DNA from: Anaerolinea sp.
Lineage (GTDB): Bacteria > Chloroflexota > Anaerolineae > Anaerolineales > Anaerolineaceae
Assembly: GCA_013824385.1 (NCBI GenBank)
Contig: PNNU01000046.1
Span: 1 to 12,988 of the forward strand
Length of the DNA stretch: 12,988 nucleotides
Direction of reading: 5' to 3'
Position numbers and translations under genes: made by a program. Of the stretch, positions 1 through 12,988 are shown piece by piece. A model generated the notes under the pieces. The model saw nothing but the letters and a program-made list of their open reading frames with translations, was not told the DNA's origin and did no database searches. The stretch's first letter is position 1; the number at the start of each line of letters is the position of its first letter.

Positions 1-17
1 TTCAGCGGGGTTTGATT

Positions 18-725
18 TTATTCGGGATTGTGTTTTCTGCGGTTCTGGGGCTGGGTGCCTGAGCTGTCAATATCCAGCCGGTAGCCCACGCCGCGGATGG
101 TTTTGATATATTCCGGGTGGCGCGGATTTTCTTCAATCGCCTGTCGCAGCCAGCTCATGTGTACATCCAGTGAACGGGTGTCACCGGTATAATCGGTTTC
201 CCACGCTTTGCGGAACATTTCTTCACGGTTGATCACCTCTCCGGCATGTTCCATTAAGATCTTCAACAAAACCACCAGCCTTGGTGTAAGTTGGATCTGT
301 TTATCTTTCAAGATGACCCGATGCTGTTCCACATCCAAAATCAAAGGTCCTGCCTGTAAACCGCCGTTATTAATAATGGGCAGCAAGTGTTTTACCCTGT
401 TTACCAGTTTCTGCATGGTAAAAGGCAGGAACAAAACCGAGTTGGCATCATAATTATCTTTGGGGTCGGCATCTTTATCCAGCACAAGGATCACTGGCAG
501 ATCAACGTTCTGTTGATGAAGTGATTGACAGATGCGTTTACCGTTGGTGCGCATTGAAGAGGCATCGATTACCACTAAATCGGGTTTACTGCTTTCAAGG
601 TGAGATAAAGCAGCCGCTCCACTTGGCACACTTTCAACCAGATAACCTTTTTTGGTTAATCCAGCTGCAAATGAAGGGTGGTCTGTTCTTTTGCCTTCAA
701 CGAGTAAAATTCTTGGTTTAATCAA
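18..725 (-). CDS. OmpR-type winged-helix regulator with degenerate receiver domain
   Basis: A 235-aa two-domain response-regulator-like protein. Residues about 4-116 resemble a CheY-type receiver; residues about 126-218 form an OmpR/PhoB winged helix, with a recognition-helix region near S185-I197 and the usual C-terminal hairpin ending IRGVGYRL (210-217). The phospho-acceptor Asp is kept (D54 in VVIDASS). However, the acidic pair after the first strand reads VEGKR (E10, G11) instead of E/D-D, the conserved Thr/Ser after strand 4 is L82, and the switch Lys before PF is L100. The protein therefore probably acts without classical phosphorylation, as known atypical OmpR-family regulators do; that is inference. 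No histidine kinase gene is adjacent. The start is a TTG at 725: an in-frame stop lies 6 codon bases further upstream, and no Met occurs before M58. No clear Shine-Dalgarno precedes it. Its target genes cannot be read from the sequence. Confidence 0.88.
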   Translation of the reverse strand: MIKPRILLVEGKRTDHPSFAAGLTKKGYLVESVPSGAAALSHLESSKPDLVVIDASSMRTNGKRICQSLHQQNVDLPVILVLDKDADPKDNYDANSVLFLPFTMQKLVNRVKHLLPIINNGGLQAGPLILDVEQHRVILKDKQIQLTPRLVVLLKILMEHAGEVINREEMFRKAWETDYTGDTRSLDVHMSWLRQAIEENPRHPEYIKTIRGVGYRLDIDSSGTQPQNRRKHNPE

Positions 726-931
726 TGATTCTTAATTCCAGTCCATATTTTGATAATAGTAACAGTACCCTGTTGTTTCTGATAGTTGTGTTATTACAAA
801 ATCCTGCTTGCAGTCTGATATCCCATGATTTTCATGAGATGCATAGTCATTGTCGCTCTGTCTGTCAATTGAATAAATTCCCCACAAAAAACAAAACTAA
901 ATCATGCAGACAGTTGAAGGTGATAAAACAA

Positions 932-971
932 TTACTAGTAACTATTATACTCCAATCTTAAAAAAATCAAG
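932..971 (-). promoter_or_regulatory. Possible minus-strand promoter with palindrome at the start site
   Basis: On the minus strand a perfect TATAAT lies at 949-944, with a poor -35 (ACTTGA, 972-967) at 17-base spacing. Transcription would start near 937, inside the perfect palindrome TTACTAGTAA (932-941), and give the regulator gene a leader of about 210 bases. The palindrome could be an operator, for example for autoregulation, but only its symmetry supports this. Confidence 0.3.
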
Positions 972-1031
972 TTAAAAGAATTGTAAGCCTTAAAAAAACT
1001 AACCCAATATAAAAACAGTGGGTCAGGCAAG

Positions 1032-1060
1032 TTGCGTAGCGTTTTGGCGCGTGTTAGAAT
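1032..1060 (+). promoter_or_regulatory. Sigma-70-type promoter of the bfn-dnaB-dnaD-loader operon
   Basis: A -35 box TTGCGT (1032-1037) is followed by exactly 17 bases and the -10 box TAGAAT (1055-1060), preceded by the extended -10 TGT (1052-1054). The start of transcription should be near 1067. This leaves about 40 bases of leader before the ATG at 1108 and excludes the longer open frame beginning at 1018. Confidence 0.7.
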
Positions 1061-1091
1061 ACTATATATCTTTTATGTATAATTTACGTGT

Positions 1092-1100
1092 GAGGAAGAG
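1092..1100 (+). promoter_or_regulatory. Ribosome binding site that fixes the bfn start
   Basis: The purine-rich GAGGAAGAG lies 7 bases before the ATG at 1108. The in-frame upstream GTG at 1018 lies before the promoter -10 box, so 1108 is the preferred start. Confidence 0.65.
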
Positions 1101-1107
1101 AAAATTA

Positions 1108-1701
1108 ATGTCCGAGATGGTTGAAGTGATGATCGACAGTTTGAGGGTAAGCCTCACTAATCAGCAGCGCATAGTATTGCTGCGTGAAATGGGCGTAGAC
1201 CGCTACCTTCCGATCTGGATTGGCCCTTATGAAGCAGATGCCATCATCATTTCGCTGCAAGAAACAGAAATTGCGCGCCCTCAAACCCATGATCTCCTTA
1301 TTGAGACCCTTGAAAAAACACATTCAAGGCTGACCCGAGTGGAAGTTATCGCCCTGCGTGGGGATATTTTTTATGGCAATTTGGTTATCGAGTCAGGCGG
1401 CGAAATCATCCTCATTGATGCAAGACCTTCCGATTCGATTGCCTTGGCAGTCAGGGCGCATGTGCCCATCCTTGTGGCGCGTGATATTCTTGAAACGGCT
1501 GGTATCACTCCCGAATCGGATATTCAACAAGAATTGGAAGAGGAAGAATCCAAACAGGCTGCTGCTGAAGCGGGTGAATCAAAAGAACGGCTGTCTGTTT
1601 TTGAAAGTTTTCTGTCAAACGTCAAGCTTGATGAAGAACCGGATGAAGATAAACTCTCTGACCCGGATGACGATCCAGATCATCCTTCCCAAGACCAATA
1701 A
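1108..1701 (+). CDS. Bifunctional nuclease family protein (BFN / DUF151)
   Basis: A 197-aa protein with an N-terminal BFN (DUF151) domain, about residues 4-140. Family hallmarks are the segment YLPIWIGPYEADAI and the conserved RPSDSIALAVRA block. Characterised relatives have RNase/DNase activity, though the cellular role of most bacterial members is unknown. The tail, after about residue 140, is low-complexity and strongly acidic, rich in E and then D, and probably disordered. The start at ATG 1108 is chosen from the promoter and ribosome binding site; the frame is open back to 1018, but that N-terminus looks non-native (Arg/Lys and aromatic mix) and would lie upstream of the transcript start. 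It is the first gene of a probable operon: dnaB follows after 42 bases with no terminator between. A link to replication or repair is suggested only by this position. Confidence 0.9.
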   Translation: MSEMVEVMIDSLRVSLTNQQRIVLLREMGVDRYLPIWIGPYEADAIIISLQETEIARPQTHDLLIETLEKTHSRLTRVEVIALRGDIFYGNLVIESGGEIILIDARPSDSIALAVRAHVPILVARDILETAGITPESDIQQELEEEESKQAAAEAGESKERLSVFESFLSNVKLDEEPDEDKLSDPDDDPDHPSQDQ

Positions 1702-1743
1702 ATTTGTACCACTAATCTGATAATTGGAGAACCCGGGTACCCC

Positions 1744-3132
1744 ATGAGCAATTTTCAATCTCCAGATGATAACTCTGTTACCGAGATCCAGTCGCAGCCG
1801 AACAGTCGTGAGGCTGAAGAGGCCGTACTGGGGTCCATTCTAATCAATCCCGAGTCTTACTATGATGTTGCTGAAATTTTGCATGAGGACGATTTCTACA
1901 TAATCCGCAACCAGTGGGTGTGGAGTTCTTTCGTTCGATTAAATGAAAAACGCGCCCCCATTGACATCCTTACAGTTAGTGAAGATTTGCAGAATCATAA
2001 TCAACTCAGTGATATTGGCGGTCAATCTTACCTGATCTCTCTGGTGAACCAGACCCCTACCTCGCTGCACGCGCAATCTTATTCTCATATCGTGGAGCAA
2101 AATGCCATCCGCAGGCGCATGTTAGCCGCGGCCAACGAGATGGCCAAGTTAGCCTACGACCAGGAAAAAGACGTGGATACGATCATCGATAAAGCCGAAA
2201 TGTCCGTCTTTGGCTTGAGCGAAAGGCGAGTGCGTCACGACCTTGAACCGATTGAACGCGTCTTAAGTAATTTCTATGATCATGTAGACGAACTCTCCCA
2301 AAGGGATGAAGAAATTTTTGGCGTTCCTACAGGGCTAACCGATCTGGATAAATTGCTGGGTGGTCTGCAAAAATCGGATTTGTTGATCATTGCTGGTCGC
2401 CCGGGTTCTGGTAAAACCGGCTTCATGCTTTCCATTGCCAAGAATGCCGCACAAAAACACAAAAAACATGTGGCTTTTTTCTCACTTGAAATGTCTAATG
2501 AACAGCTTGTGCAGCGTTTAATTGCGCAAGAAACAAAGATCGACACCCAACGGCTGCGCACCGGTAAATTGGCGGATGAAGAATGGCCGCTGTTCACTCA
2601 CGCGGTCGAAGTGCTGGGCGATACTCACATGTGGCTGGATGATACCCCGGCCATTACTCCGCTCCAACTTCGCACCAAGTGCCGCCGACTGCACATGGAG
2701 CACAGCCTGGATTTAATCATCATCGACTACCTGCAGTTAATGGGCAGCGATTCTCGAAACGAAAACCGTGTTCAAGAAGTTTCGCACATTTCCCGTAGTC
2801 TCAAAGTGCTGGCGCGTGAACTAAATGTGCCGGTTTTGGCAGGCGCACAGCTCTCTCGTGCCGTTGAGCAGCGTGAAGGCAAGAAACCTGTACTTTCCGA
2901 TTTACGTGAATCAGGCTCTCTCGAGCAGGATGCCGATATTGTCATGTTCATCCACCGGCCTGACATGCTTGAAAAAGACAATCCTCGCCAGAATATTGCC
3001 GAGTTGATCGTGGCCAAGCATCGTAACGGCCCCACTCACCCGGGCATTGAATTGGTCTTCTTAAACAACCTGGCCAAGTTTGAAAACGCAGCCACTTTTT
3101 CGGGCGATTTCAAGGATAAAAAGAGAATTTAA
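1744..3132 (+). CDS. dnaB: Replicative DNA helicase DnaB
   Basis: A 462-aa hexameric 5'-3' replicative helicase that unwinds the fork ahead of the polymerase and binds primase. The N-terminal DnaB domain covers about residues 17-120 (SREAEEAVLGSIL at its start) and the RecA-like motor about 185-450. The Walker A loop is GRPGSGKT (218-225), Walker B ends at D328 in IIIDYLQLM, and the conserved KHRNG (425-429) carries the arginine finger. The length is normal and no intein is present, although dnaB is a common intein site. The start is ATG 1744; a GGAG at 1726-1729 is 14 bases away, rather far, so translation may be partly coupled to the upstream gene. The DnaD-like gene begins 8 bases after its stop. 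Confidence 0.97.
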   Translation: MSNFQSPDDNSVTEIQSQPNSREAEEAVLGSILINPESYYDVAEILHEDDFYIIRNQWVWSSFVRLNEKRAPIDILTVSEDLQNHNQLSDIGGQSYLISLVNQTPTSLHAQSYSHIVEQNAIRRRMLAAANEMAKLAYDQEKDVDTIIDKAEMSVFGLSERRVRHDLEPIERVLSNFYDHVDELSQRDEEIFGVPTGLTDLDKLLGGLQKSDLLIIAGRPGSGKTGFMLSIAKNAAQKHKKHVAFFSLEMSNEQLVQRLIAQETKIDTQRLRTGKLADEEWPLFTHAVEVLGDTHMWLDDTPAITPLQLRTKCRRLHMEHSLDLIIIDYLQLMGSDSRNENRVQEVSHISRSLKVLARELNVPVLAGAQLSRAVEQREGKKPVLSDLRESGSLEQDADIVMFIHRPDMLEKDNPRQNIAELIVAKHRNGPTHPGIELVFLNNLAKFENAATFSGDFKDKKRI

Positions 3133-3140
3133 GGCAGGCG

Positions 3141-3827
3141 ATGTCTCCATTCAGCGGATTTAATGCGTCCACGGGTAAGAACACTCCCCTCCCGGCGGCA
3201 TTCTTCACCGACTTGCTGCCTCTGGTCACTGACCTGGATGAGCTGCGTGTCATCTTGTGGGCGTTCAAAAGTCTAGATCAGCAGCAAGGTGATTTGCGCT
3301 ATCTGACTGTTGAAGATTTCATCAAAGCCGAAGAATTCATCCCGTGCCTGGGGAAGACTGAAAAAGAGCAAAAAGAAAGACTCTCTAAAGCACTGGAAGG
3401 CACAATTAGATTGGGAGTGATCCTAACGGCTGAAAGTGCTGACCAGCACCTTTTCTTTCTAAACTCTGCCAGAGGCAGGGCAGCCCTCGAGGGACTTTCG
3501 CAGGGCGCCTGGAAGCCCGAGGCGCATCACACTGCCGGTTTTGCAGCCAGCTGCCCCAATATTTTTGCCTTATACGAACAGAACATCGGTCCGCTGACCC
3601 CGTTAATCGCGGATGAATTGCGCGACGCTGAAGGCCAATATCAGGCAGACTGGATCAATGATGCATTCAGAATTGCCGTCACCCGAAATGCCCGCAACTG
3701 GCGCTATATAGAAGCTATTTTACGCTCGTGGAAAGAGAAAGGCCGTGATGAAAGAGATCAACGATCCACTCAAGAAGATCGCAAACTCGATAGTGAAGGG
3801 CAATATGGCGACTACATCCTCCACTAA
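3141..3827 (+). CDS. DnaD-like primosome / replication initiation protein
   Basis: A 228-aa protein with the two-part DnaD plan. An N-terminal winged-helix-like region (about 20-100) contains the typical string of short helices around DLDELRVILWAF. A C-terminal DnaD/DnaB-type helical domain (about 140-198) follows, with ALYEQNIGPLTP and the signature Y-x3-I-x3-W (Y189, I193, W197 in YIEAILRSW). In Bacillus, DnaD domains bridge the origin or restart machinery and the helicase loader, and bind DNA. The position between dnaB and a DnaC/DnaI-like gene fits that role closely. Translation starts at ATG 3141 after an AGGCAGG-like purine stretch (3131-3138), 8 bases past the dnaB stop. The last 23-80 bases overlap the loader gene in another frame. 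The charged tail after W197 is probably disordered. The exact partner (DnaA, PriA or other) cannot be read from the sequence. Confidence 0.85.
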   Translation: MSPFSGFNASTGKNTPLPAAFFTDLLPLVTDLDELRVILWAFKSLDQQQGDLRYLTVEDFIKAEEFIPCLGKTEKEQKERLSKALEGTIRLGVILTAESADQHLFFLNSARGRAALEGLSQGAWKPEAHHTAGFAASCPNIFALYEQNIGPLTPLIADELRDAEGQYQADWINDAFRIAVTRNARNWRYIEAILRSWKEKGRDERDQRSTQEDRKLDSEGQYGDYILH

Positions 3828-5145
3828 CTCTGAAAAGCAAAAAGAGGATGTCTGCCCGATCTGCGGTGGAGTTGGATTTGTGCGCAAGGATGTGCCGATC
3901 AGCGACCCTGATTTTGGTAAATTAACCATGTGCGTCTGCAAACAAAACGATCAAAATCGCACCGCTCAAGAACGTTTGCTGCGCATGAGCAATCTTGAAG
4001 CCTTTAAACAAATGACCTTTCATTCGTTTTCAGTGCAGGGCAGGCTGGGGCTCGGAGATGAGCAGATTCAATCGCTGCAATACGGCTTGAGCCAGGCGCA
4101 GCAGTACGCCGCCACCCCCCGCGGGTGGATGGTGCTGATGGGCACCTACGGCTGCGGCAAGACCCATCTGGCAGCCGCCATCGCCAACACCTGCGTGGAA
4201 TATGGTATGAACACGCTTTTCCTGACCGTGCCTGACCTGTTGGATTGGCTGCGTTATTCATATGATACCCCCGATACCACTTTTGAACAGCGTTTTGAAG
4301 AAATTCGCAACGTTGGTCTATTGGTGCTTGATGATCTAGGCTCTCAGAATTCCACCAAGTGGGCCGCTGAAAAGCTCTTCCAAATCATTGATTACCGTTA
4401 CTCGCGCAAACTTCCGTTGGTCGTCACCACCAACCTGACCTTTGAAGACCTGGATGACCGCATCCGTTCACGGCTGCAAGACCCTGACCTTTCCACCCGT
4501 GTGCGCATCTCTGCACCCGATTACCGGGCACCGATCAAAGACAGCAAAGATCCTCTTGTCTACCAGCTTCAATTGTTGGGGGACCGTTCTTTTGGCAACT
4601 GGAGCGGAAGAGAACCGGAGAGATTGCCTGTTGAAGTTCAAACCAACCTTGAGAATGTACAAAGAGCTGCCCAAGATTTTGCCGAGTCGCCGCGCGGCTG
4701 GCTGGTTATGACGGGCACCTACGGTTGCGGAAAAACCCATTTGGCCGCTGCCATTGGCAACTACCGCAAGGGGATGGGAGACGATCCCATTTTTGTGGTT
4801 GTCCCCGATCTGCTGGACCATTTGCGCGCCACTTTCAGCCCTGCCAGTAATGTGTCTTATGATGAGATGTTTAACCGCGTTAAAGGGGCTTCTGTGCTGA
4901 TCCTCGACGATCTGGGCACGCAAAGCGCCACCCCGTGGGCGCGTGAGAAACTTTATCAGATATTTAATGAGCGCTACAACGCCAAGCTGCCCACGGTGAT
5001 CACCATGTCAGGCAACCTTGACGATCTGGATGCACGCATTCGCAGCCGCATGTTGGACGGACGCTTATGTTCGATATATGAGATTATGGCGCCATCCTAC
5101 CGCGGCGGCATGCAGCGTACTGAACGTCCACGCAAGAGCAAATAG
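3748..5145 (+). CDS. Tandem DnaC/DnaI-like helicase loader with two AAA+ modules
   Basis: A 465-aa protein that looks like two helicase-loader ATPases fused head to tail. It opens with a Cys cluster, C36-x2-C39-x22-C62-x-C64, probably a zinc finger; the N-terminal helicase-binding domain of Bacillus DnaI also holds zinc. Module 1 has Walker A GTYGCGKTH (132-140), Walker B LVLDDLG (D195, D196), sensor-1 VVTTN and the arginine-finger box RIRSR. Module 2 repeats this: GTYGCGKTH (323-331), LILDDLG (D387, D388) and RIRSR, but with VITMS where module 1 has VVTTN. The Walker A loops are 191 residues apart. Ordinary DnaC/DnaI/IstB-like loaders are about 240-310 aa with one module. The inferred job is loading DnaB onto DNA, supported by the dnaB and dnaD-like genes directly upstream. 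The start is uncertain: GTG 3745, ATG 3748 (AAAGG at 3738-3742) or ATG 3805 (GAAGGG at 3795-3800); all begin inside the DnaD-like gene, implying translational coupling. Confidence 0.9.
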   Translation: MKEINDPLKKIANSIVKGNMATTSSTNSEKQKEDVCPICGGVGFVRKDVPISDPDFGKLTMCVCKQNDQNRTAQERLLRMSNLEAFKQMTFHSFSVQGRLGLGDEQIQSLQYGLSQAQQYAATPRGWMVLMGTYGCGKTHLAAAIANTCVEYGMNTLFLTVPDLLDWLRYSYDTPDTTFEQRFEEIRNVGLLVLDDLGSQNSTKWAAEKLFQIIDYRYSRKLPLVVTTNLTFEDLDDRIRSRLQDPDLSTRVRISAPDYRAPIKDSKDPLVYQLQLLGDRSFGNWSGREPERLPVEVQTNLENVQRAAQDFAESPRGWLVMTGTYGCGKTHLAAAIGNYRKGMGDDPIFVVVPDLLDHLRATFSPASNVSYDEMFNRVKGASVLILDDLGTQSATPWAREKLYQIFNERYNAKLPTVITMSGNLDDLDARIRSRMLDGRLCSIYEIMAPSYRGGMQRTERPRKSK

Positions 5146-5161
5146 AAAAAACCACTGTAAA

Positions 5162-5602
5162 TTAAACCGGTTTTACTTCTGAGGTGCAGTGCGGGCAGCG
5201 GCTGGCCTTCTTTGATATTTCTGTCATACAGTAAGGACATTCGCGAGTGGTTGTTTCGACAGGTTTTTCTTCTTTTTTAGATAACCGGTTCATACCGCGA
5301 ATCATCAAGAAGATGATCAAGGCCATGATCAGAAAATTGACCACGTTATTTAAAAAGAGGCCGTAATTCAGGGTGGGAGCGCCGGCGGCCTGAGCCTCAG
5401 CCAAACTGGCAAAGGTTTTTCCACTCATATTGATATATAGATTAGAAAAATCCACTTTACCGAGCAGTAAGCCTATGGGGGGCATGATAACGTCATTGAC
5501 GAGAGAAGTAATGATTTTACCAAAAGCTCCGCCGATGATCACCGCTACCGCCAGATCAATCACATTACCGCGCAAAATAAATGCCTTAAATTCTTTAAGC
5601 AT
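5162..5602 (-). CDS. mscL: Large-conductance mechanosensitive channel MscL with C-terminal zinc ribbon
   Basis: A 146-aa inner-membrane channel that opens under membrane tension to release solutes during hypo-osmotic shock; MscL forms homopentamers. The family N-terminus is clear ([20 protein letters not shown]), with TM1 about residues 14-46 including the glycine/alanine pore helix, a periplasmic loop about 47-80, and TM2 about 81-103. In place of the usual C-terminal helix alone there is a Cys4 zinc ribbon, C122-x2-C125-x10-C136-x2-C139, on the cytoplasmic side. It is slightly longer than E. coli MscL (136 aa). The gene has a strong Shine-Dalgarno and its own promoter (5634-5663), and converges on the loader gene with 16 bases between stops and no obvious terminator between them. 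Confidence 0.96.
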
Positions 5603-5606
5603 AATT

Positions 5607-5613
5607 CCTCCTC
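5607..5613 (-). promoter_or_regulatory. Strong Shine-Dalgarno of mscL
   Basis: On the minus strand GAGGAGG lies 4 bases before the mscL ATG. It is the best ribosome binding site in the window, in contrast with the neighbouring MFS gene, which has none. Confidence 0.75.
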
Positions 5614-5633
5614 TGATTTAATAAATAATTTTA

Positions 5634-5663
5634 AATTTACAACGAATGGATTTGGTTTGTCAA
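5634..5663 (-). promoter_or_regulatory. Promoter of mscL
   Basis: A consensus -35 TTGACA (minus strand, 5663-5658) is followed by an 18-base spacer and a -10-like TAAATT (5639-5634). The start near 5627 would give a 25-base leader containing the Shine-Dalgarno. Confidence 0.6.
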
Positions 5664-5688
5664 ATCTTTTTATCTGGAGATAAAGCGT

Positions 5689-5734
5689 AGGGGAGGTTCA
5701 CGCGAAGCGTCCACTTGCTGGATGAACCTCCCCT
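5689..5734. repeat. Palindromic element able to form a three-way junction
   Basis: A perfect 12-base inverted repeat, AGGGGAGGTTCA (5689-5700) and TGAACCTCCCCT (5723-5734), encloses two small hairpins that fill the whole loop: CGC-GAA-GCG (5701-5709) and TCCA-CTTGC-TGGA (5710-5722). No base is left unpaired at the junction. No T-run follows on either strand, so it is not a classical terminator. The GC-rich symmetric form suggests a dispersed REP/MITE-like intergenic repeat; other copies cannot be looked for here. Confidence 0.75.
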
Positions 5735-5764
5735 CAACGACGGAATATAAATCCTTTGTCACCG

Positions 5765-5773
5765 TGTTAGAAT
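5765..5773 (+). promoter_or_regulatory. Extended -10 promoter of the MFS gene
   Basis: TGTTAGAAT (TGn at 5765-5767, TAGAAT at 5768-5773) has the same ten-base core GTGTTAGAAT as the promoter before the nuclease gene. No good -35 lies at 17 bases. Transcription would begin near 5780, only about 4 bases before the ATG at 5784. Confidence 0.5.
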
Positions 5774-5783
5774 AATTCTCATC

Positions 5784-7025
5784 ATGATTGCCCGACTGAA
5801 AACCGCTCAAAAAGAATACCCCGGCCAGTTCTGGATTCTGTTCATTGGTATGCTGATCAGCACCATTGGACAATCCATGATTTGGCCGTTCCTGATGATT
5901 TATGTCTCCAAAAAGTTGGAGCTTCCGCTGGCTCAGACCGCCAGCCTGATTAGTATGAATGCGGGCATGGGGCTGGTCTTTTCTTTTGTAGCTGGACCCA
6001 TCATCGACCGCCTTGGACGTAAGTGGGTCATGGTGGTGAGCCTTATAGGCATGGGCGTAATGTATTTCATCATGAGCACGGCAGCCACATTTATCGAGTT
6101 TGCTGTGGTGCAGTGCCTGATGGGTGCCCTGACCCCCCTCTACCGTGTTGGTGCAGACGCCATGCTGGCCGATATCATCCCTGCCGAGAAACGCACGGAT
6201 GCCTATTCTTTGCTGCGTATGAGCAATAATGCTGGAGTAGCCATTGGACCGGCCATAGGCGGCCTTGTAGCTTCCACATCCTACTCTTTGGCCTTTTACC
6301 TTGCTGCAGCCGGATTGAGTTTTTACGGGCTGCTGATTGCCTTTAAAGCCAAAGAAACCCTGCCCAGCGGGGTCTCTGAAACCTTGAAGGGTAAGTTCGT
6401 TTTTGCGGGCTATGGTCATATCTTCAGGCACGGCGAATTCATGGGCTTTATTGGAGCTTTTACGCTTACCTCCATGTTGGCAACTCTGGTGTGGGTGCTG
6501 CTGCCGGTATACACCAATACAAATTTCGGGCTGCCTGAAAAGTTATACGGCCTCATCCCCACCACAAATGCATTAATGGTGGTGACACTGCAATTTTTGG
6601 TTACCCAAATCTTCAGGCGGCGCAAACCTATGGTCGTACTGACCATAGGCACCGCATTTTATGCTGCTGCAACTCTGATGGTGGCTTTCTTCAGCGGTTT
6701 CTGGGGGTTTTGGTTCTGCATGGTGATATTGTCCATTGGAGAGCTGATTATCAGCCCTACTGCCACAACCTACACGGCCAACGCCGCCCCCGCCGATATG
6801 CGCGGTAGATACATGAGTGTTTTTGGTTTGACACACAGTGTGGCTTCTTTGATCGCGCCTGTTCTGGGCGGGGTGATGAGCGATCAATTTGGCGGGCGTA
6901 CCATTTGGTTGGGTGGGGGTGTGATCGGCTTGTTGGCGATTGGTGCTTTCTTGTGGCTGACCATTTTAATTAATAAACGTGATCAAAACAGAACATCAAC
7001 GATAAATCCAATAAACACTCAATAA
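5784..7025 (+). CDS. Major facilitator superfamily transporter
   Basis: A 413-aa integral membrane protein with about 12 hydrophobic segments, typical of a drug- or metabolite-efflux MFS carrier in the cytoplasmic membrane. The MFS loop 2-3 motif A is intact: G71-x3-D75-R76-x-G78-R79-K80. The segment NNAGVAIGPAIGG, a motif-C-like glycine/proline pattern of TM5, favours an exporter (antiporter) over an importer, but the substrate cannot be told. The second half begins after a central polar loop near KAKETLPSGVSETLKGK. ATG 5784 is used because the hydrophobic core starts soon after it. No Shine-Dalgarno precedes it and the -10 box is about 10 bases away, so the mRNA is probably leaderless. The exported protein gene follows after 49 bases with its own promoter. 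Confidence 0.92.
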   Translation: MIARLKTAQKEYPGQFWILFIGMLISTIGQSMIWPFLMIYVSKKLELPLAQTASLISMNAGMGLVFSFVAGPIIDRLGRKWVMVVSLIGMGVMYFIMSTAATFIEFAVVQCLMGALTPLYRVGADAMLADIIPAEKRTDAYSLLRMSNNAGVAIGPAIGGLVASTSYSLAFYLAAAGLSFYGLLIAFKAKETLPSGVSETLKGKFVFAGYGHIFRHGEFMGFIGAFTLTSMLATLVWVLLPVYTNTNFGLPEKLYGLIPTTNALMVVTLQFLVTQIFRRRKPMVVLTIGTAFYAAATLMVAFFSGFWGFWFCMVILSIGELIISPTATTYTANAAPADMRGRYMSVFGLTHSVASLIAPVLGGVMSDQFGGRTIWLGGGVIGLLAIGAFLWLTILINKRDQNRTSTINPINTQ

Positions 7026-7032
7026 ATCGGCA

Positions 7033-7047
7033 GCTATTGCGAATAGC
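7033..7047. promoter_or_regulatory. Dyad overlapping the -35 box of the exported-protein gene
   Basis: GCTATT-GCG-AATAGC is a perfect 6-base inverted repeat around a 3-base centre and covers the -35 box TTGCGA (7037-7042). It could be an operator. Alternatively, with the T5 run at 7054-7058, it could be a weak terminator for the MFS gene; the 6-base gap before the T-run makes that less good. Confidence 0.4.
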
Positions 7048-7065
7048 CATCGATTTTTGTATAAT
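7037..7065 (+). promoter_or_regulatory. Promoter of the exported repeat protein
   Basis: TTGCGA (7037-7042), a 17-base spacer and a perfect TATAAT (7060-7065). The expected start is near 7072, three bases before the ATG at 7075, predicting a leaderless transcript. Confidence 0.7.
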
Positions 7066-7074
7066 AAGTAATTG

Positions 7075-8025
7075 ATGAAGAAATTACGCTGGGCTTCCGT
7101 TTTTCTCATTCTGGCCTTACTGATCGCATCTATTCCACAAGCGGTTAAGGCGCAGACCTCTGATTCCGTCTATGTCTCAGAAACCGGGCATTGGCTCTGG
7201 GGTGATTTCTTGCGCACCTACAACAGCGTGAGCGATCCGCTGCTTTATTTTGGTTATCCCATAACGGATGATTTCCTTGATCCGCAGTCCAACCAGCGCG
7301 TACAGTACTTCCAGCGCGCGCGTTTTGACCTGGTGGATACTGCCGAGGGGCCAATGGTGCAGATTGCACCTCTTGGCAAGCTCTTGCATCAAGAAGGTGC
7401 ACAACTCGCGGATATCCCTCGAGAGGGACCTACCTGCCGCAACTTCAATTCGGGCTTAACAGTCTGTTATGCTTTCTTGCAATTTTATGATGCTTACAAT
7501 GGCGCCGCCTGGTTTGGCGAGCCTATTTCCGAAGTCGAAGTTGCCGACGGACATTATGTGCAGTACTTCGAGAACATCCGCATGGAATGGTGGCCCGACA
7601 ACCCCAGTGGGCAGCGTGTGATGATTTCGGATCTTGGACGTATCTATTTTGATAAAGAAGTTCGCAATCCTGAGTTATTAAAACCCAGTCAACCTGCCAG
7701 TATTGCCGGCAAGCTGATTAATCCAGTTGTCAATGTGTTTGCGCTGAAATCTCTGGTGGGGGTTGGAGAGTCGCAGACTATTTTTGTGATCCTTCAGGAT
7801 CAAAATCTTGCGCCGGTAGCTAATGCCCAGGTGGGAGTGACCCTTTACTATCCTGACGGCAGCAAGCAGTTCTACCGTCTCGCCGAGACCAATGAATTTG
7901 GCATCAGCCAATTCAGCTTCACGGTGGATCAGCTTGAGGTGCGCACTGTCGTGAACGCGGTCGCCGAGATCAACATCCGTGGAGAATCCATCTCGGGAAA
8001 AACCTGGTTTCGTATCTGGTGGTAA
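7075..8025 (+). CDS. Exported protein with two aromatic repeats and an Ig-like tail
   Basis: A 316-aa secreted protein of unknown function. Residues 1-26 are a clear signal peptide: KK/R start, hydrophobic core, and a VKA site before Q27. Two related repeats follow. Repeat 1 (about 39-104) has FLRTYN, YFGYPITDDF, VQYFQRARFDL and PLGKLL; repeat 2 (about 131-193) has FLQFYD, WFGEPISEVE, VQYFENIRMEWW and DLGRIYF. Both share an order of helix, (F)G-x-P-I-(T/S), VQYF and LG. C121 and C131 could form a disulfide. The last about 95 residues (VGVGESQTIFVILQD onward) look like a bacterial Ig-like beta-sandwich with the typical 'T-N-E-F-G-I-S' turn. Similar repeat proteins are, as I recall, common in Chloroflexi and are thought to act at the cell surface. 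No lipobox or sortase signal is seen. ATG 7075 is chosen over the TTG at 7072 because it begins the signal peptide. Confidence 0.82.
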   Translation: MKKLRWASVFLILALLIASIPQAVKAQTSDSVYVSETGHWLWGDFLRTYNSVSDPLLYFGYPITDDFLDPQSNQRVQYFQRARFDLVDTAEGPMVQIAPLGKLLHQEGAQLADIPREGPTCRNFNSGLTVCYAFLQFYDAYNGAAWFGEPISEVEVADGHYVQYFENIRMEWWPDNPSGQRVMISDLGRIYFDKEVRNPELLKPSQPASIAGKLINPVVNVFALKSLVGVGESQTIFVILQDQNLAPVANAQVGVTLYYPDGSKQFYRLAETNEFGISQFSFTVDQLEVRTVVNAVAEINIRGESISGKTWFRIWW

Positions 8026-8098
8026 AGAATTGGTTTTGCATTAAGTAAAATCAAGAAACATTTCTTCTTGGTAATCAAAACTGAGAGAGCGGGTCAAA

Positions 8099-8506
8099 AT
8101 GAGAAAAATCGATTGGAAGGATGCATATTCGGTTGGGGTGAAAATATTTGATGAGCAGCACAAAGAGATAGTGGATTATCTGAATAAAATGTTTGTAATT
8201 ATTGACCAGAATTCCCAACAGGATCAATTAAAAGATCTATTTACCAAGATTGATGAATATGCTCAAGTTCATTTCACCACAGAAGAAGGAATATTAAATA
8301 AATTTAAATATCATGATTTGGAGGGGCATAAAGAGGAGCATCAAATTTACATTGCCAAAATGGAAACATTTCGAGATAGACTCATTTCAACTGACGAACA
8401 TGTTAGTGAAGATATTCTAGGTTTTCTTGCTGATTGGTGGATGGGGCACATTCAGGGGTGTGATAAAGAATACACGAGGTTTCTCAATAATTGTGGGGTT
8501 TTTTAA
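8099..8506 (+). CDS. Bacteriohemerythrin
   Basis: A 135-aa single-domain hemerythrin, a four-helix bundle with a di-iron centre that binds O2 reversibly and may act in oxygen sensing, storage or scavenging. All seven expected iron ligands are visible: H21 (FDEQHKEI), H58 and E62 (HFTTE), H77 and H81 (HKEEH), and H117 with D122 (HIQGCD). W6 and the SVGV stretch are family hallmarks. The length is typical of the stand-alone bacterial form, with no fused signalling domain. Only a weak GAGAG (8083-8087) lies before the start, and I see no good promoter in the 73-base gap. The gene is visibly more AT-rich than its neighbours, which may reflect a different history. In an anaerobe its likely use is oxygen handling; that is inference. 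Confidence 0.94.
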   Translation: MRKIDWKDAYSVGVKIFDEQHKEIVDYLNKMFVIIDQNSQQDQLKDLFTKIDEYAQVHFTTEEGILNKFKYHDLEGHKEEHQIYIAKMETFRDRLISTDEHVSEDILGFLADWWMGHIQGCDKEYTRFLNNCGVF

Positions 8507-8510
8507 AGCT

Positions 8511-8538
8511 AAAGTCGCCGTTTTTACAGCGACTTTTT
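8511..8538 (+). terminator. Rho-independent terminator between convergent genes
   Basis: An 8-base stem, AAAGTCGC (8511-8518) with GCGACTTT (8529-8536), has a 10-base loop and runs into TTTTT (8534-8538). It lies just after the hemerythrin stop. The complementary strand has a T-run only within the stem (ACTTT), so it may also serve the TPR gene, less efficiently. Confidence 0.8.
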
Positions 8539-8539
8539 A

Positions 8540-10870
8540 TTACTTCTTCTGGTTTCTTAACTCTTCATACAATCTGCGATAATCGTTGCTGTTGGGGGGG
8601 TTCAAGGCAATCAGATTTTGCAAAGTTGCCAATGCACCGTCGCGATTTTCCTGACGCAGACACTTTTCAGCCAGGGCATCCAGTTTTTCGATGATCTCTG
8701 TCACTCTATTTTGATTTTGATAATATCGGATCAGGCGTTTTTGGATATCAATGTTGTCAGGTCGATCCTCCAACAGATTATCTAAAAAGTGCTCTGATCG
8801 ATCAGAATGACCGGCAGTCTCAAGCAATTTGAGATAACCATCCAATTCAGTCATGGCTCCCGAAGGCAGGCCGATTCGTAGGTAGAGGTCAATCAAAGTT
8901 GCGCGTGTTGTGGCGTCCAACGGTTCGAGACTGCGCAGCTGCTCGAGTATTTTGATGGCCTGTTTCAGGTCCAGACTCTGCAATTCAATATCTGCAAGTT
9001 TATTTAAAATTTGTACAGCCCAAGAGCGTGAAGCAACTGTTTTTTGTGAAAGTGTCAGGGCTTTCTGATAGTCATCCCTGGCCAGATCCAATTCGGCTAG
9101 CAGGTAATGAACGTTTGCAATATCCATATATTGCTGGACGGCTTCATCCATACGGTTTGAAGAGATTAGCAGGTCTATCAGCATGCCCCTGATTGAAAGA
9201 TCCATCGGGGCAAGTTTTGCCACGCGGGTTAATAGTCTCACTGCCTGGTTAATTTCACCTCTCACATTGTAAAGGTAGGCTACCAGGTTGAATTTTTCAA
9301 CAGCCTCATGGATGCGTCCTTCCATAATTAACAATTCACCAATTTGCACATGCAATGGCAGGTAGGTGGGTGCATGGGTGAGGGCGTGAAATGCTTCTTC
9401 CATGGCAGTGCGGAATTTGCCTTCTGCTGCCAATTGTTTGATGAAGGTAAGAGCTTCGATGACCTGACTGTTAGTAGTTTCGAGCATCATTTCAGCCAGG
9501 GGGATGGGTGGACTGCCCTCGGGTTGGCGGGGCAGTTGACTGCGTGCCACTTTTAAATACTCACGCCAATCAGAACGCATCAGTTGGGCTTGAATTGTTT
9601 TGGTGATATTGGCAAGGTCTTTTTCTACCTTGATGCGTTCATGCGCTTCAAGGATCGGTTCATAGAGTTGCGTGAGTTCACTCTCAAGGTCTTTTGATAC
9701 AGATTGTATGTCTGCCAGTTTTAACGCTTGCAGTGCATAAGTGCTTGAGTCTTTCATTTGCCCGGCTTTTTCTTGAATAACAGCCATTAGTAAATTCGAA
9801 GCAAGTGCGTAAGCAGGGTTTCTCACTGCTTTTTGCAGATGTTTGAGTGATTTTTCCGGGCTGGATTGATAGGTTAGCAAGGCGAGCACATATTCCGCGG
9901 CAGAAAGATTGAGTCCGAGATCAATGGCTCTTTCAAGTTCCACGGCAGCTTCATCATCTTTACCCCCGGTTTGCAAATCGATCGTACGACTGAGATGAGT
10001 TCGCGCACGCGAACGCTCGGCATCTTTTGAAGAAAGGTCGCCAGTTCCGCGCAGTAGGTGAATCTGGCGGCGCATTGGAACTTTTTCTTCAGTATTTGCA
10101 CCTTCAGATTGTTCAAACAGCAGGCCAGCCAATTCTTTTAATGCAACCAATCGAGCCTCGATTAGAGGATCATATTTCGGCAATAATTCTTGTGATTGGG
10201 AAGGATTTTCCATCTGTTTTACTTGCGACATGCGTACAGGGCCTGTTCCGCCTTTGATGGGTTGGGGCAGGTTCATCTGTTGGCCGGTTTTTAGCAGCAT
10301 GAGGGCATTTTGAGCTGCCTGGTTTTGCGGTTCCAACCCGAGGGAATATTGCACCACCTGGCTGGCTTTGGCTGTGTCCCCGCTGTACTGCATTAGTGCA
10401 GCCACAAATAAGTATTCTGCGATACATTCACTCTTCAATCCCATTTTGTCGTAGATCATGGCTAGGCGCATGCGCACAGTCTGATTGTTTGGGTCTAGGC
10501 GGATGGCTTCTTTAAATGCTGCGATGGCATGTTCCGCATCTCGGGCTTTAAGTTGTTTTTCTCCGCATTGCATAAACGCTTTAACAGCTTCTATGATAGA
10601 GCCGGTATGTTCAAAAATGCGTCCCATTTTTTCAAATGGCATGGGGTCGTCTGGCGTCAGACTGGAGCAGCGCAGATAAAACTTTAAAGCCTCATCATAT
10701 TGCTCCAATTGATAACAAGCCAACCCGGCACTGGCAAGCGCCATTGCATCTTGAGGATTTTCCAACAATGCCAGACGGTATAATTCCAATGCCATGGCCC
10801 AGTCTTGCTCCCAGGCAGCGGTGTGCCCCTGGCTCATTAAAGTTTGAAATTGGGCGGATTCTTGGCTCAT
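8540..10870 (-). CDS. Large cytoplasmic TPR-repeat protein
   Basis: A 776-aa soluble protein made almost entirely of tetratricopeptide repeats, with no signal peptide or membrane segment. Clear units include the N-terminal ones around AAWEQDWAMALELYRLAL, ACYQLEQYDEALKFYL and AIAAFKEAIRLDPNN, a middle one near KDDEAAVELERAIDLG, and C-terminal ones such as YQKALTLSQKTV and LKQAIKILEQLRSLEPLD. A less regular, charged linker lies about 205-285 (KYDPLIEARLVALKELAG, then RRQIHLLRGTGD). TPR solenoids are protein-binding scaffolds, so partners rather than a reaction are expected; none is identifiable. ATG 10870 is chosen, with AAAGAG 5-10 bases before it; an in-frame GTG at 10876 is the alternative. 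The start is 21 bases after the polA stop, so the two are very probably cotranscribed. It ends at the terminator shared with hemerythrin. Confidence 0.88.
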   Translation of the reverse strand: MSQESAQFQTLMSQGHTAAWEQDWAMALELYRLALLENPQDAMALASAGLACYQLEQYDEALKFYLRCSSLTPDDPMPFEKMGRIFEHTGSIIEAVKAFMQCGEKQLKARDAEHAIAAFKEAIRLDPNNQTVRMRLAMIYDKMGLKSECIAEYLFVAALMQYSGDTAKASQVVQYSLGLEPQNQAAQNALMLLKTGQQMNLPQPIKGGTGPVRMSQVKQMENPSQSQELLPKYDPLIEARLVALKELAGLLFEQSEGANTEEKVPMRRQIHLLRGTGDLSSKDAERSRARTHLSRTIDLQTGGKDDEAAVELERAIDLGLNLSAAEYVLALLTYQSSPEKSLKHLQKAVRNPAYALASNLLMAVIQEKAGQMKDSSTYALQALKLADIQSVSKDLESELTQLYEPILEAHERIKVEKDLANITKTIQAQLMRSDWREYLKVARSQLPRQPEGSPPIPLAEMMLETTNSQVIEALTFIKQLAAEGKFRTAMEEAFHALTHAPTYLPLHVQIGELLIMEGRIHEAVEKFNLVAYLYNVRGEINQAVRLLTRVAKLAPMDLSIRGMLIDLLISSNRMDEAVQQYMDIANVHYLLAELDLARDDYQKALTLSQKTVASRSWAVQILNKLADIELQSLDLKQAIKILEQLRSLEPLDATTRATLIDLYLRIGLPSGAMTELDGYLKLLETAGHSDRSEHFLDNLLEDRPDNIDIQKRLIRYYQNQNRVTEIIEKLDALAEKCLRQENRDGALATLQNLIALNPPNSNDYRRLYEELRNQKK

Positions 10871-10891
10871 GATCACTCTTTCAAAGTTTCG

Positions 10892-12988
10892 TCAACTTTT
10901 AAGCACTTGCATGCTTCCCCAATTGATGCCGCTTCTGGCTTCAGTGAGCAGGGGGATTGAAAGCTGATAAGCCTCAGACATTACTGTTTGTACAACTTTG
11001 GCAGTATCGGCTAATTCTTTTTCTGGTACATCCAAAACTAATTCATCGTGTACTTGCAGTAGAATTTTAGCCTGTAATTTCTTGGCTTCAAGTGCGGAGG
11101 GCAGGTGGATCAAGGCTAGTTTCATAATGTCCGCAGCCGTACCCTGGATCGGAGCGTTAATAGCCTCGCGTTCTTCACGGTTTTTCATATTAACGTTAAT
11201 CGGATTAGCCAGGTTGGGGAAGTAGCGTCTGCGTCCAAGCATGGTTTCAACGAACCCCTGGCGGGTTGCCAATATACGGATGTTATCCAGATAGCTTTTC
11301 ACACCCGGGAAGTTTTCGAAATATCCTTTGACAAAATTTTCAGCTTCACCAAGGGTCAGGTCGGTGGAACGGCTTAACCCAAAAGCGCTCATACCGTAGA
11401 TCAATCCAAAATTAATCGCTTTGGCGTGACGCCGCTGATCTTTGGTGACCTCTTCAAGCGGAATGCCGTTAATGGCAGCGGCTGTTGCAGCGTGAATATC
11501 CTGCCCGGCGCGGAAGGCATTCAACATGGCTTCATCACCAGACATGTGCGCCACGATCCGCAGCTCAATTTGTGAATAATCCACAGAAAGCAGCACGCAT
11601 CCGGGCGATGCAATAAACCCAAGGCGCACCTGACGTCCAATTTCGGTGCGCGTTGGGATGTTTTGTAAATTCGGGTCAGAAGACGCCAGACGGCCGGTGA
11701 CCGAGCCGGTTTGGTTGAAATTGGTATGCACCCTGCCAGTGCGTGGATTGACCTGTAGTGGCAACGAATCGAGATAAGTGGATTTTAATTTGGCCAGTTC
11801 GCGGTATTCCAATAATAAATCCACCACCGGGTGTTTGCCGCTTAGTTCATCCAACACTGCTGCCGAAGTGGAGAAATGTCCGCTGGCAGTTTTCTTGTTG
11901 CGGTCAGGTGGAACGAGTCTGAGAGTCTCAAACAGTACTTTTGAAAGCTGCTGGGTTGAATTAAGATTAAAGGGGTAACCAACGGCTTGGTAAACCTGAT
12001 CTTCAATTTCTTGCAGCCGAATGTTCATTTCACCACTGAACTTCTTAAAGAATTCGGTATCCAGCAAGATGCCGTGGCGTTCCATCTGCATCAAGACAGG
12101 AACCAGGGGCATTTCAATATCCTTAAATATCCGGGTGCATTTGCGATCTTCCATCTTCTTTTCAACCAGCGGAGCCAGTCTGAAGGTGACTTCAGCGTCC
12201 GCGGCAGCGTAGGGTGCAGCCGATTCGACCGGCACCTGGTCCATGGTGATCTGGGTCTTACCTTTGCCGATCAACTCTTCAATGTGGGTCATACTGGCAT
12301 TGAGATAGTCGCCCGCCATGTCTTTGAGTCCGAGGTTGTGTGAAGATGGGTCAATCAACCACTCGGCTAACATGGTATCAAAGGAGAGCGGGGTGGTTTC
12401 AAGGCCATAATTACCCAACACCAGCGCATCATATTTGATGTTGTGCCCGACCTTTTCGATCTTGGGATCTGTGAAAGCTGGTCTCAGCGATTGAATGACT
12501 TCTGCAATGGGCAGCTGGGCGGTCAGGCCGGTGTGTCCAACGGGGATGTAATATCCGGTGCCTTCTTTGACCGACACAGAAATTCCTACAAGGTCGGCTT
12601 TAAGTGGGTCAGTGGATGTAGTCTCGGTATCAAAAGCGATTCTTGGCGATGATTTTAATAATGCCGCCAATTCGCCCAGTTTTTCTGGATTGTTGACTAT
12701 GACCGTCTCAAGCGAATATTGTGAAGGGAGTCCGATTTCATGAACTTCGCTGGCGAAGAGATTCATCTGTCCCTTCGGCGCGGATTTGATAAACGGAGAT
12801 GCAACAGTATGCAGGCGGGTGACCAGAGTGCGGAATTCAAGTTCTCTGAAAAGGGCTTCGACGGCAGGTACATTGATGTGATCGGTTCTGGCGTCATCCA
12901 GTTTCAGGGTTATGCCTACATCCGTTTTAATTCTGGCCAAGGTCTGACTCATATAAGCAGAATCTTTACCTTCAGCGATCTTACTCCC
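10892..12988 (-). CDS. polA: DNA polymerase I, 3'-5' exonuclease and polymerase domains (5' end off the window)
   Basis: Family A DNA polymerase for gap filling, Okazaki fragment processing and repair. The frame is open to the window edge: the 12 codons before the Met at 12952 encode GSKIAEGKDSAY, running into SQTLARIKTDV, the usual Pol I linker. The gene is therefore cut by the window, and the missing part is expected to carry the 5'-nuclease domain. The 3'-5' exonuclease looks active: FDTET (near 12617-12634), a GHNIKYD segment, and Y-x3-D in YAAADAEVT. Polymerase motif A DYSQIELR (11558-11581), motif B KAINFGLIYG (11393-11422, with the O-helix Phe) and motif C VHDEL (11039-11053) are all intact. 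The C-terminus continues a few residues past the usual end (SMQVLKS). The TPR gene follows closely. Confidence 0.96.
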   Translation of the reverse strand, partial: GSKIAEGKDSAYMSQTLARIKTDVGITLKLDDARTDHINVPAVEALFRELEFRTLVTRLHTVASPFIKSAPKGQMNLFASEVHEIGLPSQYSLETVIVNNPEKLGELAALLKSSPRIAFDTETTSTDPLKADLVGISVSVKEGTGYYIPVGHTGLTAQLPIAEVIQSLRPAFTDPKIEKVGHNIKYDALVLGNYGLETTPLSFDTMLAEWLIDPSSHNLGLKDMAGDYLNASMTHIEELIGKGKTQITMDQVPVESAAPYAAADAEVTFRLAPLVEKKMEDRKCTRIFKDIEMPLVPVLMQMERHGILLDTEFFKKFSGEMNIRLQEIEDQVYQAVGYPFNLNSTQQLSKVLFETLRLVPPDRNKKTASGHFSTSAAVLDELSGKHPVVDLLLEYRELAKLKSTYLDSLPLQVNPRTGRVHTNFNQTGSVTGRLASSDPNLQNIPTRTEIGRQVRLGFIASPGCVLLSVDYSQIELRIVAHMSGDEAMLNAFRAGQDIHAATAAAINGIPLEEVTKDQRRHAKAINFGLIYGMSAFGLSRSTDLTLGEAENFVKGYFENFPGVKSYLDNIRILATRQGFVETMLGRRRYFPNLANPINVNMKNREEREAINAPIQGTAADIMKLALIHLPSALEAKKLQAKILLQVHDELVLDVPEKELADTAKVVQTVMSEAYQLSIPLLTEARSGINWGSMQVLKS

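Follow-up and report, generated by a model that had tools for sequence, protein, structure and literature searches.

A probable replicative-helicase loader with two AAA+ modules in one chain in Anaerolinea sp. and other Chloroflexota

The sequence analysed, hereafter the window, was a 12,988-nucleotide stretch of an Anaerolinea sp. assembly (Chloroflexota, Anaerolineaceae; GenBank GCA_013824385.1, contig PNNU01000046.1, positions 1 to 12,988). On its plus strand lie, in this order, dnaB, a dnaD-like gene and a gene for a DnaC/DnaI-type protein, the putative helicase loader, in which two AAA+ modules share one chain (Table 1). The open reading frame of the loader was uninterrupted, with 466 codons from GTG 3745 or 465 from ATG 3748, and its start overlapped the 3′ end of the DnaD-like gene by 80-83 bases. 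Loader residues are numbered from the GTG; counts from the ATG are one lower. The motif GTYGCGKTH was found at residues 133-141 and 324-332, LDDLG at 195-199 and 387-391, and RIRSR at 239-243 and 431-435. These positions matched those of the original prediction, a note made from the DNA letters alone, which had counted from ATG 3748.

Table 1. Features of the loader locus in the window
Feature	Positions	Strand	Evidence
dnaB, replicative DNA helicase, presumed loader client	1744..3132	+	NCBIfam TIGR00665 544 bits, cut-off 385
DnaD-like gene, DnaB_2/DnaD domain, presumed co-loader	3141..3827	+	PF07261 46.8 bits; TIGR01446 48 bits
Probable two-module helicase loader, intact open reading frame	3745..5145	+	NF005992 228.5 bits, cut-off 189
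N-terminal extension, residues 1-36, short helix pattern M-K-x-I-x-x-x-L-K-x-I	3745..3852	+	pattern common to many relatives
Four-cysteine motif C37-x2-C40 ... C63-x-C65 (CPICGG...CxC), candidate zinc site	3853..3939	+	one per chain
AAA+ module 1, residues about 80-263, sensor-1 Asn230	3982..4533	+	domain matches, alignment, profile-profile comparison
Walker A of module 1, GTYGCGKT	4141..4164	+	motif read
Sensor-1 triplet of module 1, T-T-N	4426..4434	+	Asn in 56/57 aligned, 126/149 two-module proteins
R239-I-R-S-R243 of module 1, candidate arginine coupler/finger	4459..4473	+	both Arg in 57/57
AAA+ module 2, residues about 271-455, sensor-1 Asn lost	4555..5109	+	alignment, profile-profile comparison
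Walker A of module 2, GTYGCGKT	4714..4737	+	motif read
Sensor-1 position of module 2, T-M-S replacing T-T-N	5002..5010	+	Asn in 0/57 aligned, 12/149 two-module proteins
R431-I-R-S-R435 of module 2	5035..5049	+	R431 in 54/57, R435 in 57/57

The two halves of the loader were 47% identical over 154 residues (BLASTP E 7e-51), and their local alignment scored 371 against a maximum of 52 among 2000 shuffles. A profile-profile comparison of the halves gave E 4.5e-93 over 184 columns. The head-to-tail duplication within one chain that had been proposed was therefore borne out. The repeat unit spans approximately residues 80-263 and 271-455, and the N-terminal part with the cysteine motif is present once. 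Pfam family PF01695 (IstB_IS21, the DnaC/DnaI family) matched the loader in two stretches (129.3 bits, cut-off 24.1). Among the 20 NCBIfam models shown in a scan, NF005992 alone passed its cut-off (228.5 bits against 189), while the DnaI model NF006505 (142.5 bits, cut-off 228) and the DnaC model NF005931 (126.1 bits, cut-off 357) stayed under theirs. An IstB/DnaC-type AAA+ core is thus present, and the proposed assignment to the helicase-loader family stood. Module 1 had Walker A, Walker B and the sensor-1 Asn; module 2 was without the sensor-1 Asn.

A scan of named genomes yielded 149 relatives, of which the best 80, with 46-95% identity to the loader, were analysed. The record titles of these 80 were all Chloroflexota or groups within the phylum (Anaerolineaceae, Anaerolineales, Thermoflexales, Caldilineae, Ardenticatenia and others). 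Both modules lay in a single frame in 77 of the loci, including the isolates Thermanaerothrix daxensis, Anaerolinea thermolimosa and Ornatilinea apprima and the metagenome-derived chromosome record CP070764. The other three loci were broken, two by frame shifts (L013 and L074) and one round a masked stretch (L037). Over both modules, seven close pairs showed 0.014-0.149 non-silent differences per site against 0.575-0.862 silent ones, the silent sites being near saturation in some of the pairs. Many Chloroflexota bacteria carry the two-module loader in one chain.

Every one of the 80 loci also contained a DnaD-like match, and 75 contained a DnaB match; some loci end at contig edges. A phylum survey added 110 loci, one per genome (30 by default and 80 picked from listed rows, a sample that leans to good matches), and here the DnaD-like match was found in 104 and the DnaB match in 98. 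Across 301 Chloroflexota genomes, a strong loader relative was present in 183, DciA in 97, both in none and neither in 21. Relatives were counted as strong at E 1e-10 or better; the weakest strong match was 3.0e-24, so that the line was set in a gap of the matches. In each of twelve genomes with the double loader, PF01695 matched twice in one frame. Their other PF01695 matches lay in frames of about 180-290 codons, which we took as IS21 helpers, and of about 450-540 codons, taken as DnaA, apart from a few short or weak ones. A DciA search of these twelve genomes found none, with control genomes positive in 7 of 14. Since strong loader relatives and DciA never occurred together, the protein is most likely the resident helicase loader. 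This exclusion agrees with a passage in Brezellec et al. 2016 (PMC5109545), which describes for Chloroflexi the domestication of a resident dna[CI] and the loss of dciA upon dna[CI]. Given its family, its gene setting and the exclusion of DciA, the gene very probably encodes a replicative-helicase loader, and we regard this identification as well supported.

The two modules were compared in 149 two-module proteins, of which 78 came from the named loci and the window and 71 from the phylum survey, with two genes counted in both sets. The P-loop GK[ST] was kept in both modules of all 149. Other motifs were kept more often in module 1 than in module 2: a canonical P-loop in 149 versus 133, the Walker B DD in 148 versus 140, the first Arg of the R-x3-R box (R239 position) in 147 versus 117 and the second (R243 position) in 144 versus 136. 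The sensor-1 Asn differed most, being present in 126 module 1 copies and 12 module 2 copies. Counted per protein, 114 had it in module 1 alone, 12 had it twice, 23 lacked it altogether and none had it in module 2 alone; within the family of the window (n=78) it was found in 77 copies of module 1 and in a single copy of module 2. The original prediction of two complete AAA+ modules must accordingly be narrowed, as module 2 is without this residue in 137 of the 149 proteins. This loss implies that the halves are probably not equivalent, and from the aligned residues it seems fairly probable that the ATP sites of the two-module loader are unequal.

The 23 proteins without the Asn in either module (L063, L108, L109, L116, L119, L134, L161, L163, L165, L184-L189, L191-L194 and L196-L199) may have both sites weakened or a different residue serving in its place. 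In the distant relatives L061, L063-L069, L071, L072 and L075-L079, the module 2 P-loop had one inserted residue, mostly reading GNGKTH or ANGKTH.

The E. coli DnaC work of PMC8213410 gives these differences a context. According to passages of that paper, mutating any of five motif residues, including sensor-1 N203 (N203A), abolished ATPase activity, and, of the active-site mutants, that in sensor 1 loaded helicase worst. The same source names Lys143, Phe146, Ser177 and Tyr179 as a tetrad binding single-stranded DNA (ssDNA). These align with R170/Y173/T204/W206 in module 1 and R361/F364/T396/W398 in module 2, all conservative matches, and the aligned Arg and Trp were kept in 57/57 sequences in both modules. 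Both halves thus look able to hold ATP and ssDNA, and module 1 alone looks fully able to hydrolyse. On the basis of their spacing, R239 and R243 are candidates for the arginine coupler and finger.

The N-terminal part occurs once per chain. All four cysteines of its motif were kept in 57/57 aligned sequences. They are predicted to bind zinc, because the N-terminal domain of DnaI has a zinc-binding fold, as stated in part of PMC3791466. In the extension preceding them, residue 9 was Leu in 70 and residue 5 was Ile in 54 of the 81 rows. The predicted structure placed a helix at residues 6-17 with low confidence, the predicted local distance difference test score being <50 for much of the extension. 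The helix pattern is kept in many relatives although the DNA coding for residues 1-36 partly overlaps the DnaD-like gene. Possibly these 36 residues form a docking helix.

The 110 survey loci fell into three architectures: 71 had two modules, 25 had one, and 14 had one that followed a long N-terminal stretch of low complexity. The low-complexity stretch was seen in L137 and L148-L160, in many of which a short motif, YGDWE for example, recurs. The sensor-1 Asn was kept in 24 of the 25 plain single-module loaders, in all 14 with the low-complexity stretch and in 8 of 9 loaders from phages or plasmids. One single-module loader (L162:2965-3882) has a module that groups with the second (C) modules and, like some of these, reads T-T-C at the sensor position; module 1 seems to have been lost naturally here. 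Among the 60 phage and plasmid matches listed (of 654 and 1348 records), match spans were 564-834 bases, single-module by span, and one IMG/VR locus had a loader match over 690 bases. In nine of the phage/plasmid loaders, an annotated DnaD or replisome-organiser gene stood directly upstream in five and overlapped the loader start in three. We infer a mobile-element origin: a DnaD-loader cassette would have given rise to the Chloroflexota unit, its AAA+ module duplicating later.

The original prediction had called for a phylogeny of the halves. A first module tree had 85 rows, for which 51 representatives were chosen from 197 units, and its bootstrap was still unsettled. Most first (N) modules stood apart from most C modules in it, but neither set formed one group (4 changes for N, 2 for C); the single-module loaders fell mostly among the C modules, with weak support. 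A quick tree was then pruned to 68 rows by leaving out 8 single-module rows, five long-branch phage/plasmid rows and the L113 and L197 pairs. Here the 32 C modules formed one side of a branch (Shimodaira-Hasegawa-like approximate likelihood ratio test 95.8), and an N clade was not rejected (approximately unbiased test, p 0.345). The simplest reading of this split is that one old duplication gave rise to the two modules, a reading that depends on the pruned set and the quick tree. When scored against the window's modules, 148 of 149 C modules matched the C module better than the N module and 79 of 149 N modules the N module better than the C module, so the N modules are the more varied set. Of the plain single-module loaders, 23/25 scored better against module 2 of the window than against module 1. 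On whether the single-module form came before the duplication or arose later by loss, the traits disagree: tree and score mostly liken these loaders to C modules, but the sensor-1 Asn is retained in 24 of the 25.

Two modules per chain set the loader apart from its known relatives. Bacillus subtilis DnaI has one AAA+ module per chain, as does E. coli DnaC, whose subunits are equal (the N-terminal parts lay outside this comparison); the DnaC/DnaI trait of a single module per chain was therefore not found here. Phage and plasmid DnaC/DnaI cassettes resemble the locus in the upstream DnaD or replisome-organiser gene present in five of the nine, but are single-module by match span. IstB of IS21 belongs to the same Pfam family and, as part of PMC11208146 describes, forms oligomers built from dimers; unlike the loader, it is a transposition helper with one module per chain that dimerises through its N-terminal domain. 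The presence of dna[CI] in Chloroflexi was already reported by Brezellec et al. (PMC5109545), with Anaerolinea thermophila in the data set. The words "tandem" and "duplicat" are absent from the main text of that paper, and the two-module form is not described there under them. Among the matches listed from main texts of the open-licence full-text literature, we found no description of a two-module loader, in line with the original prediction, to which no characterised loader of this form was known. The gene itself was thus known in Chloroflexi; we take the two-module form to be new.

We lean towards the view that the resident loader amounts to a covalently joined pair of DnaI/DnaC-type subunits that share one N-terminal part for docking on the helicase. 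A DnaI-like dimer would have been fused at its origin, and the halves would then have specialised. Three two-module chains would bind one DnaB hexamer, their six modules forming one open spiral that keeps the ring open and grips ssDNA; we consider this stoichiometry of three chains in one spiral evenly poised. Module 1 sites would hydrolyse ATP, and module 2 sites would mainly hold it and supply arginines to the neighbour, so that hydrolysing and slow sites would alternate round the spiral. Hydrolysis at module 1 would then release the loader from the helicase. The covalent-dimer, trimer-of-dimers idea fits DnaI on DnaB, which in the account given in part of PMC3791466 forms three dimers whose two monomers contact the helicase differently. 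The fullest version is put forward only tentatively, as slightly less probable than its negation: an obligate trimer, derived from a single old duplication and kept across much of Chloroflexota in place of DciA, in which hydrolysing sites of module 1 alternate with ATP-holding sites of module 2.

Several observations weigh against this interpretation. The predicted single-chain structure had a predicted template modelling score (pTM) of 0.47, too low to place the two modules relative to each other. Doubling is not required for the job, since 39 of the 110 survey loci had single-module loaders; 37 of these 39 also showed a DnaD-like match and 28 a DnaB match. The sensor-1 asymmetry is not universal: 23 proteins have the Asn in neither module and 12 have it in each. 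R243 aligns ungapped with the coupler R216 of DnaC and not with the finger R220. According to part of PMC8213410, helicase loading by the Walker A mutant of E. coli DnaC was close to the wild-type level, so loading could be unaffected when one half no longer hydrolyses ATP. The 183 genomes with strong relatives pool single- and two-module forms and may include some with IS21 helpers. A further 56 genomes had weak loader matches (E 1.4e-10 to 8.7e-4), with DciA in 49 of them; we took these matches as other AAA+ proteins. Moreover, we infer the stoichiometry and geometry on DnaB, and DnaB binding, ATPase activity and oligomeric state are predicted from sequence.

In a two-tier loader built like type II AAA+ proteins, six chains rather than three would sit on the DnaB hexamer, and a ring or spiral of module 1 copies would have another, made of module 2 copies, stacked on it. 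We consider this arrangement unlikely. Whole-length structure matches of the low-pTM model had root mean square deviations of 11.7-18.4 Å (Foldseek) and 6.1-9.4 Å (VIA-align 2), and those to p97-type proteins were not used as evidence for module placement. Alternatively, six module 1 domains could do the loading, and module 2, outside the spiral, could have turned into a regulator or an adaptor that binds, for instance, ssDNA, DnaA or the DnaD-like protein. The loss of the sensor-1 Asn from module 2, its greater drift at the R239 position and in the canonical P-loop, and the existence of single-module relatives would suit such a role. However, module 2 retains its GK[ST] throughout, nearly always the Walker B DD and the R243 position, and the tetrad Arg and Trp, and it shows few non-silent changes; we give this alternative the same low probability as the two-tier arrangement.

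A different kind of doubt concerns whether the protein is a loader, or the frame real, at all. The best-scoring Pfam family is named IstB_IS21, which might suggest an IS21-type transposition helper. The NCBIfam IS21 helper model reached only 144.8 bits, below its cut-off of 200, the neighbours are dnaB and a DnaD-like gene, none of the nine Pfam-scanned window proteins was a transposase, and DciA is excluded; a helper is therefore very improbable. As the original prediction had recognised, the fused frame could also have come from a sequencing or assembly error joining two adjacent genes, or close relatives could have had two separate single-module genes. Neither was the case in the 77 one-frame loci, which span 46-95% identity and include isolates, and the three broken loci show the opposite fault. 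We found nothing in favour of such an artefact and reject it.

With the identical subunits of DnaC or DnaI, it is hard to ask how many ATP sites must fire, or whether the six act alike or as three pairs. Clamp loaders and the origin recognition complex allow mutation position by position. In the two-module loader, where the modules are tied and one has a changed catalytic residue, each position could likewise be mutated alone, and the protein offers a natural test of how such loaders work in pairs. A core factor of chromosomal replication has changed its subunit architecture within one phylum, with single- and two-module forms standing in much the same gene setting.

The remaining genes of the window encode a bifunctional-nuclease domain protein (1018-1701), an MscL channel (5162-5602), a major facilitator superfamily transporter (5784-7025), a hemerythrin (8099-8506), a tetratricopeptide repeat protein (8540-10876) and a DNA polymerase I with a 3′-5′ exonuclease domain (10892-12952). 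The DnaB of the window has 462 amino acids and is intein-free. In three relatives, the DnaB adjacent to the loader contained an intein with Intein_splicing and LAGLIDADG_3 domains (L129:4498-6831, L147:4535-6700 and L180:3744-6317).
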